Assembly: GCA_030725715.1 (NCBI GenBank)
Contig: JANRFG010000016.1
Coordinates: forward strand, 62,001-126,000
Length of the DNA: 64,000 nt
Direction: 5' to 3'
Source: Opitutales bacterium
GTDB taxonomy: Bacteria > Verrucomicrobiota > Verrucomicrobiia > Opitutales > UBA953
The notes below the pieces were generated by a model. It was not told where the DNA came from. It was given only the letters and a program-made list of their open reading frames with translations, and did no database searches. This document shows, piece by piece, positions 50,643 to 52,645 of the stretch. The stretch's first letter is position 1. Each line of letters begins with the position of its first letter. Position numbers and translations under genes: made by a program.

Positions 50643-51104
50643 TCAACGCGCGTAAGGCGCGCGACCCAGTGCGGTCAGCTTTGCGCCTATGTCTTCGCGG
50701 ACACGATCCTGGCTCAGGAAGTTGACCGGCGTGCCCGGGACCACCTGGGTCGTGAAGAGGACCCTGCCCTCACGCGCCCGGAGGACCAAGCCAAGGCCGA
50801 CGACCTGACGTGTTGACGCTGCTCCGTACCCCGCGGTTTCCCATCGCCCCTCGAGGATGGCGTCCGCCGACGCCTCTTCGAGGGCGGCATGATAACCCAT
50901 GGCCTCCAGTCGACGGACGGCGGCGTCATGGGCGACCTCTCCGCATCGGCGCAGCTCAGCACTGGTCGCTCCGGCGGGCTCGCGGACAAAGATGCGCCGG
51001 ACCTCCGCGGGGGCCGCGCCCTGATCCGACAAGGGGACGCATCCCGCCAAAAGCAGCGTCAAGGCCGTCCATAGGCGGCGCCAGGAGGGTCCCGTGCGGT
51101 GCAT
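50643..51104 (-). CDS. Small lipoprotein of unknown function
   Basis: A 153-residue protein with a lipobox LLLAGCV (Cys near residue 22). The mature part alternates short helices and beta strands, with GYHAALEEASADAILEGRWE and a conserved-looking ARxGRVLFTTQV segment. This resembles small outer-membrane lipoproteins of the DUF4136 sort, but the match is weak. It converges on panE with a 6-nt gap. Confidence 0.7.
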   Translation of the reverse strand: MHRTGPSWRRLWTALTLLLAGCVPLSDQGAAPAEVRRIFVREPAGATSAELRRCGEVAHDAAVRRLEAMGYHAALEEASADAILEGRWETAGYGAASTRQVVGLGLVLRAREGRVLFTTQVVPGTPVNFLSQDRVREDIGAKLTALGRAPYAR

Positions 51105-51196: not shown

Positions 51197-52252
51197 ATGG
51201 CCCGAGTCCAAGCCGTCACGTTCGACCTCGCAGGCACCCTGCTCTTCCCGCACCCCTCGGTGGGAGCGGTGTACGCCGCGTGCGCCCAAGCCCATGGCGT
51301 CGAGATCGAAGCCGCCGTCCTGGAGGCGGCCTTCCCGTTGGCTTTCAAAGGCGGCCCCAAGAACGCCAAGCCGGAGGTCTTCTGGCGGGAAGTCGTCCAA
51401 CGCTGCTTCGGGCCCGCGCTCCCCTCGTCGAAGACGGAGCTGGTCTTCCATTCCTGCTGGGAAGCCTTCGCGAAACCCGAAGCCTGGCGGCTCGCGCCGG
51501 GCACCCTTCAGGCGATCTCGGCGATCCGCTTCCTCGGCGTCCGCGTCGGCGTGCTTTCGAACGCGGACGCGCGCATGCGCACGGTCCTCGAAGGACATGG
51601 GCTCATGAAGCATCTCGACGGCGTCTTCCTGTCGGAGGAGACCGGCTACGCGAAACCCGACGCCCGGGCGTTCGGACAGGCGGCGCGCGCCTTGGGCGGC
51701 GCGGTCTCCGGCCTGGTGCACTTCGGCGACAGCCCGACCGAGGACGGCGAAGGCGCCCGTGACGCCGGCGCGACCGGCGTGGTCGTGGGCGGAGCGCACG
51801 CGCCCGAGCGTTGCCTGCGCAACGAACGCATCTCCGAGGCTCCTTACGCCGTGCGCGCCCTGCTCACGGAAGGAAAACTCAAAGGCAAGTTCTCGCGGAC
51901 CGTCCAGAACCTGCTCGCCAATCTGCGCGGCCTGCCGGAAGACCGCGGACGTTCCAGCGACCGCCCGCTCAAGACCATCGACGATGCGGTGCAGGACGCC
52001 TTCAAGAAGCTGCGCCTGGATAAGCCAGTGCCCGAGACGGCCATCGTCGCGCACTGGCTGGAGCTGCTGCCGCTGAAGCTGGCGAAACGCTCCGCCCCGC
52101 TCCGCGTGCTCGAAGGCGGCAAACTCGTCGTGCAGTGCGAGAATTCCGTCATCAAGTCCGAGATCCGCTTCCACGAACGCGCCATGCTGGCGAAGATCCG
52201 ACTCCTGCGCGGCTGCCAGGACGTCCGCGCGATCAGCTTCGTCAACGCCTGA
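51197..52252 (+). CDS. HAD-hydrolase / DciA (DUF721) fusion protein
   Basis: A 351-residue single frame with two unrelated domains. Residues 1-205 are a HAD-superfamily hydrolase: motif I FDLAGTLL (Asp10, but Ala12 where the general-acid Asp is usual), motif II LSNAD (Ser121), motif III Lys153 in GYAKPD, and motif IV GDSPTED (Asp178, Asp183). Residues about 225-351 are a DUF721/DciA domain, with DAVQDAFKKL, a W-x-L-LPLKLAKRSAPLRVLEGGKLVVQC core and the final VRAISFVN. DciA is the replicative helicase (DnaB) loader/operator in many bacteria and is usually a separate small protein. The start at the ATG at 51197 (MARVQAVTFD) is clear. Confidence 0.8.
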   Translation: MARVQAVTFDLAGTLLFPHPSVGAVYAACAQAHGVEIEAAVLEAAFPLAFKGGPKNAKPEVFWREVVQRCFGPALPSSKTELVFHSCWEAFAKPEAWRLAPGTLQAISAIRFLGVRVGVLSNADARMRTVLEGHGLMKHLDGVFLSEETGYAKPDARAFGQAARALGGAVSGLVHFGDSPTEDGEGARDAGATGVVVGGAHAPERCLRNERISEAPYAVRALLTEGKLKGKFSRTVQNLLANLRGLPEDRGRSSDRPLKTIDDAVQDAFKKLRLDKPVPETAIVAHWLELLPLKLAKRSAPLRVLEGGKLVVQCENSVIKSEIRFHERAMLAKIRLLRGCQDVRAISFVNA

Positions 52253-52645
52253 TCAGTTCGCCTTCGGCTCGAACGGACGCTGGAAGACGTCCTTTAAATC
52301 GTACACGTCCTTGAAGTCATCGAGATCGTCTTCCTCGGAGCGGCCGAACAATCCGGTCTCGATGATGTTGAAGACCACGTTGCCGACGTCGACGGACTTA
52401 CGCAGGCCCCAGTTATGGAGCAAGGGATAGGACATCGGACCGTAGGTCTCGAGCACGTGCTGACGGAAGCCCTCGAGCAGCTGCGGACCCGAGACATGCC
52501 GGTTCACGATGCTCTTCCCCTTCTTGGGTTCTCCGTGGACGATCTTCTGGGCATGGTCGAGACCGAGACGCACGACATCGTAAGCCTGCGGCTGATAGCG
52601 GGCGTCCTTCAGACGGATGAGGCGGACGGCTTCGTCGAAATCCAT
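52253..52645 (-). CDS. Minf_1886-family protein
   Basis: A 130-residue protein matching the family first noted in Methylacidiphilum and common in Verrucomicrobia and Planctomycetes: FDEAVRLIRLKDARYQPQAYDVVRLGLDHAQK at the start and LLHNWGLRKSVDVGNVVFNIIETGL later. The function is unknown. It abuts the convergent HAD-DciA gene with no gap and shares a transcript direction with hisC (2-nt gap from this start to the hisC stop). Confidence 0.82.
   Translation of the reverse strand: MDFDEAVRLIRLKDARYQPQAYDVVRLGLDHAQKIVHGEPKKGKSIVNRHVSGPQLLEGFRQHVLETYGPMSYPLLHNWGLRKSVDVGNVVFNIIETGLFGRSEEDDLDDFKDVYDLKDVFQRPFEPKAN

Follow-up and report, generated by a model that had tools for sequence, protein, structure and literature searches.

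The question raised by this locus is why the helicase loader DciA is encoded in one frame with a HAD-like domain, and what the HAD half contributes. The window (the whole stretch of DNA analysed, 64,000 nucleotides) contained a single unbroken frame of 351 codons plus stop at 51197-52252 (+). An earlier note, made from the sequence letters, had described this frame as a HAD domain joined to DciA. The translation was free of stops and both Pfam models matched above their cut-offs: PF00702 (HAD) over residues 5-191 (72.2 bits, cut-off 26.4) and PF05258 (DciA/DUF721), the model by which the note had proposed to check the second half, over residues 261-348 (47.5 bits, cut-off 24). The boundary of about residue 225 given there for the DciA half is reasonable; Pfam starts at 261, but a conserved segment (FSRxxxNLLANLRGLPEDR, 232-250) comes before the match and is common to many stand-alone DciA proteins of the order. 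The features of the gene are as follows.

51197..52252, + strand: HAD-DciA fusion gene, 351 codons plus stop (translation, Pfam)
51209..51769, + strand: HAD domain, PF00702, residues 5-191 (Pfam; fold match to 3k1z, HDHD3, E 1.1e-14)
51224..51238, + strand: HAD motif I, D10-L-A12-G-T14, with nucleophile D10 and no Asp at +2 (translation, alignment)
51260..51466, + strand: helical cap, model helices within residues 22-90 (AF2 model; absent in 4 genomes of genus g22)
51557..51559, + strand: HAD motif II residue S121 (alignment)
51653..51655, + strand: HAD motif III residue K153 (alignment)
51725..51745, + strand: HAD motif IV, G177-D178....D183 (alignment)
51710..51817, + strand: about residues 172-207, counterpart of the segment that dead HAD remnants in genus g22 retain in conserved form
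51890..51946, + strand: segment 232-250, FSRTVQNLLANLRGLPEDR, likely the old N-terminus of DciA (stand-alone DciA; model helix 234-244)
51977..52240, + strand: DciA/DUF721 domain, residues 261-348 (Pfam, profile match, fold)

The full-length AF2 model of the fusion had a mean pLDDT of 86.9 and a pTM of 0.64, with residues 245-259 below 50, and this linker was disordered in the model. The DciA half (226-351) modelled alone had a pLDDT of 76.5. Foldseek returned three matches to the latter model at E <= 0.001, each to one of the two solved DciA structures, those of Vibrio cholerae (8a3v, E 1.8e-4) and Deinococcus radiodurans (7ykm, E 1.9e-4), which have the same KH-like fold. A sequence profile of 37 relatives matched 7ykm at E 2.6e-6 and 8a3v at E 0.018.

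According to published work, most bacterial phyla use DciA as their helicase loader (PMC5109545, PMC9865707), and its extensions vary (PMC9865707). The C-terminal extension of Caulobacter DciA is reported to bind DnaB, and its DUF721 and N-terminal extension to bind ssDNA; the C-terminal hairpin of Vibrio DciA is reported to sit on the LH-DH module of DnaB (PMC9825169, PMC12547741, PMC9912922). A serine/glycine marker in DnaB is said to separate the DciA from the DnaC types (PMC9912922). Unlike known DciA proteins, including that studied in Caulobacter, the fused DciA sits behind a HAD domain and has no C-terminal extension after DUF721, the Pfam match stopping at residue 348 of 351; the conserved segment lies instead on the N-terminal side of DUF721. 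Stand-alone DciA of the order likewise ends with DUF721.

The window's genome (1.93 Mb, 94.86% complete) contained one DciA and one DnaB. The earlier note had raised the prospect of a second dciA, or of a dnaC or dnaI, in this genome, and the searches went against it at this completeness: no second dciA was found by PF05258 or by the profile of 37 relatives, and no recognisable dnaC or dnaI by PF01695, of whose ten hits nine were below the cut-off and the single one above it is read here, from its sequence, as dnaA. Across 30 sequences of the window's genus pN/pS was 0.28 for the HAD half, 0.18 for segment 228-260 and 0.20 for DciA; by this codon measure both halves are under purifying selection in the genus. 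An internal start for a free DciA was sought in the same 30 sequences as a dip in synonymous variation at the junction and none was seen, a result that is not proof.

A contig scan of GTDB genomes located 27 distinct loci encoding relatives, 26 of them carrying Opitutae, Opitutus or Verrucomicrobia titles; those spanning the whole protein were 65-93% identical and kept the join in other assemblies, which answers the worry about misassembly voiced in the earlier note. One contig whose title names a Polynucleobacter meluiroseus MAG (L022; CALPIW020000154.1, 1-786) carried a fused gene 99% identical over residues 90-351 and was probably misbinned. The window's GTDB family (f1) comprised 79 genomes in five genera. 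PF05258 matched in 67 of these, and the A2 profile (37 relatives) added two more (G057 and G062). DciA was fused to HAD in all 69, giving 70 fused frames, four of them cut by a contig edge, including that of G071, which shows the tail of the HAD model only. Nine of the ten f1 genomes with no DciA match were under 90% complete and the other (G019) was 91% complete. Besides its fused copy, G078 had a 59-residue DciA frame with no HAD at a contig edge (C220). Two fused genes were present in G020 (assembly BS8), L005 (BGOK01000029.1) and L025 (BGOK01000010.1), 90% and 65% identical to the window's, respectively; either the bin mixes two species or the gene is truly duplicated.

In the rest of the order, DciA frames among the matches listed were mostly of 120-200 residues, and the long DciA frames outside f1 (G131, G206, G267, G251, G049) contained no HAD. 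The profile of the fused protein gave a match of any kind at E <= 1e-20 in 86 of 387 genomes of the phylum; both halves lay in one unbroken frame in seven, all of them f1, with up to five candidates scored per genome. Fusions beyond the phylum were sought with close-relative patterns only. A tree built on MutS from 30 genomes set its ten f1 rows apart from the rest by one branch (support 100/98); provided the root is outside f1, this agrees with the fusion having a single origin. Searches of an open-licence library, whose coverage of DciA studies is incomplete, turned up no report of a HAD-DciA fusion, and unpublished status is not claimed. Fusion of domains is in itself commonplace; what is not is a fusion of the sole helicase loader found, with the separate-gene and post-catalytic states alive in relatives.

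The HAD half was placed by profile and fold. TIGR02252 (REG-2-like) was the best of 27 NCBIfam matches (135.9 bits, under the cut-off of 155.2), and human HDHD3 (3k1z) came first in the PDB by both sequence and fold (E 1.1e-14, TM 0.77 by target length). The HAD set of nucleophile Asp, Ser/Thr, Lys and GDxxxxD is complete in the window protein (S121, K153 and G177-D178....D183 are present) and the second Asp of motif I is replaced by A12, as the earlier note had correctly read. The step taken there from the missing Asp to reduced phosphatase activity does not follow, because most of f1 retains the remaining active-site residues and the missing Asp did not arise with the fusion. Residue +2 of motif I was Ala, Val, Ser, Thr or Phe, and never Asp, in 62/62 readable fused rows (of 70). 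Nor was it Asp in any of 31 distinct stand-alone relatives of the phylum, which were the best-scoring relatives and not a random set (39 rows less four unreadable distant paralogues and four duplicates), and the alignment gave Lys at this position in HDHD3. Since stand-alone relatives and HDHD3 also lack the second Asp, its absence belongs to this HAD branch and predates the fusion. The window's HAD differs from the REG-2-like/HDHD3 proteins (TIGR02252, 3k1z) in scoring below the TIGR02252 cut-off and in being fused to DciA. Outside four degenerate proteins of genus g22, D10 was present in 62/62 readable rows and K153 in 65/65, the position of S121 held Ser or Thr, and that of D178 held Asp or, in 3 rows, Asn.

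Dehalogenases and phosphonatases also lack the second Asp. In HAD phosphatases this residue is described as the general acid/base (PMC12715507). Plant HADs without it are reported, among them Arabidopsis HDF1, which keeps the first Asp, has another residue at +2 as here, and according to its authors may not be a phosphatase; it differs from the fusion in being a plant protein with Tyr at +2 and no DciA (PMC9876914). A literature search on HDHD3 substrates returned no paper on its substrate.

Upstream stretches of 0.2-4 kb were examined in 39 outgroup loci of dciA. A HAD gene lay directly upstream of dciA on the same strand (from overlapping to 300 nt apart) in 9/39, namely 5/10 loci of family f20 and 4/6 loci of family f8, a count that is no frequency because these two families were sampled more heavily after HAD had been seen there. 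HAD was 2.4 kb from dciA in one further f8 locus and 1.4 kb from it in one of two loci of family f3, the other of which has 216 upstream bases only. No HAD was found near dciA in the 0.2-4 kb examined upstream in 21 loci of other families. The link between the two genes is therefore not obligatory, as they are not neighbours in other families or in half of the f20 loci. The adjacent pairs of f20 and f8 have the same HAD branch, the same DciA and the same gene order as the fusion and differ from it in being two genes with a stop between them. In G129 the two share a frame with a single TAA between; in G198 the HAD stop overlaps, as ATGA, the ATG before KFSS of dciA, with another ATG further upstream. 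Loss of the stop between adjacent genes of this kind would give the fusion, and the gene order in these sister families suggests that it arose from such neighbours.

Genus g22 of f1 was found to be split. Three genomes (G062, G063, G065) encode a full HAD; in the other four of the seven (G057, G058, G061, G064) the HAD is degenerate, with the cap and motifs II and III gone and the frame still continuing into DciA. By eye, the alignment shows Arg, Asn, Asn and Gly in place of the nucleophile in these four, in the order given; in the same order GD has become GG, GT, GV and GA, with D183 kept. A frameshift is unlikely, since the HAD profile found the missing part in no other frame at the four loci. 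A search of the rest of these four genomes (75-94% complete) for an intact REG-2-like HAD found none, and relocation of the HAD was rejected: the best other TIGR02252 hit was 50 bits, compared with 103-148 bits for ten intact fused copies searched. A branch with the degenerate rows on one side appeared in 26% of the MutS bootstrap trees, which does not separate one loss from several.

In the four degenerate proteins a 36-column stretch from motif IV, first chosen by eye and covering only four sequences, had a mean identity of 73% and a pN/pS of 0.25, the g22 ratios being rough because synonymous sites are near saturation. On the same rough scale the former motif II/III stretch was relaxed (0.73), the whole HAD remnant had 54% identity and a ratio of 0.47, and DciA had 39% and 0.60. 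The motif-IV stretch of the three intact g22 proteins had 76% identity and a pN/pS of 0.27. A scan of gap-free 37-column windows placed the best window in the motif-IV stretch (0.72, median 0.45; best in DciA 0.51). A dead, cap-less HAD remnant that, in these alignments, has the most conserved stretch of its protein around motif IV is new and surprising, and the persistence of this stretch is taken as the strongest indication that a portion of the HAD core serves the loader in some way beyond catalysis. The earlier note had proposed a binding or regulatory role for the HAD; the selected stretch in four dead, cap-less HADs supports this in its binding, or structural, part.

The DciA halves of g22 (L093, L094, L096, L097, L098, L202, L203) had 39-46% mean identity and a pN/pS of 0.54-0.60, compared with 0.20 in the window's genus. 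The DciA of L202 (G062) had no Pfam match at E <= 0.1 and that of L097 was under the cut-off.

The reading preferred, with middling confidence, is that the HAD half is mainly a structural or binding module of the sole recognisable loader, that the DciA half does the loading, and that the HAD site is probably kept and not needed. The DciA half would do its usual job of binding DnaB and ssDNA during loading. The HAD half, on the N-terminal side of DciA, would act in folding, in oligomerisation or in contact with DnaB or another partner. Most genera would probably retain ligand binding or hydrolysis at the HAD site, which the essential role of the loader would not require. If segment 232-250 makes a putative contact with DnaB or DNA, the HAD core would sit beside that contact. 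This is favoured by the join in 69/69 f1 genomes with DciA, by the single DciA and DnaB of the window's genome, and by the selection on the motif-IV stretch (73%, 0.25) after the loss of catalytic residues in 4/7 g22 genomes. Against it stand the nucleophile and Lys kept in every readable row outside the four degenerate genomes, which speak for a retained activity or ligand site and not a mere scaffold, the weaker constraint on the whole remnant (54%, 0.47) than on the motif-IV stretch, and the fast-evolving DciA of the genus with the dead HADs.

It is also conceivable, if less likely, that the stop separating two adjacent, probably co-transcribed genes was lost and that the HAD, with a small-molecule job, and DciA remain separate in function on one chain, with no shared mechanism. 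The two genes adjoin in f20 and f8, in one case sharing a frame interrupted by a single stop and in another with the stop of the first overlapping the start of the second; they lie apart in other families and in half the loci of f20, the linker at 245-259 is disordered in the model, and the active-site residues of the HAD are kept in most genera. Coincidence does not readily account for a join kept in 69/69 genomes of five genera, or for a HAD piece still selected after catalysis was lost. A more doubtful proposal is that a small ligand, phosphorylated or not, binds or is slowly turned over at the HAD site, which alters the hold of DciA on DnaB or DNA and so ties loading to metabolism. This is possible, given active-site residues conserved in most genera: D10 and K153 do not vary in the readable rows once the four degenerate proteins are set aside, and the HAD domain adjoins the conserved N-terminal segment of DciA. 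Without the +2 Asp, reported as the general acid/base of HAD phosphatases (PMC12715507), a bound state could conceivably be long-lived. However, stand-alone relatives share the same motif I, which is therefore no adaptation to loading; four genomes do without the HAD site; and the literature search gave no HDHD3 substrate paper. In its fullest form, and with as little confidence, a HAD ligand or phospho-aspartate state would tune the grip of DciA on DnaB or ssDNA, and part of g22 would be a frozen, ligand-free pseudo-HAD still touching the loading machinery. Extant members of the order would in that case form a series from separate genes through an enzyme-linked loader to a pseudoenzyme-loader.

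Two further explanations carry very little weight. That the C-terminal half has given up helicase loading to another factor is very improbable: the chain ends three residues past DUF721, without the DnaB-binding extension of Caulobacter and Vibrio, and DciA is fast-evolving in g22, but stand-alone DciA of the order has the same ending, dnaC and dnaI were not found in the window's genome, and the DciA half is strongly selected in the window's genus. An assembly or frame error joining two genes was rejected and has a negligible probability. Most of the genomes are metagenome assemblies and no support for such an error was found; against it, the same join occurs in relatives from many assemblies, the 30 coding sequences of the genus contain no stop, and codon-level selection runs across the junction.

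In the f1 clade the sole DciA found is never made without HAD; related families have the two as separate genes, and a catalysis-free state occurs within the clade. This offers a direct comparison between loading tied to metabolism and a HAD core as part of the loader.

The stop of the fusion gene (ending at 52252) abuts the end of a convergent TIGR04138 (Minf_1886) gene at 52253-52645 (-), with zero spacing. A 153-aa protein with no Pfam or NCBIfam match is encoded at 50643-51104 (-), divergent to the fusion gene, and is kept at the same place in most loci of the window's genus. Where the flanks reach, loci of this genus have panE upstream of the fusion and the TIGR04138 (Minf_1886) gene and hisC downstream. 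The pair nadB-panE also precedes the fusion gene in 6/6 loci of genus g25.
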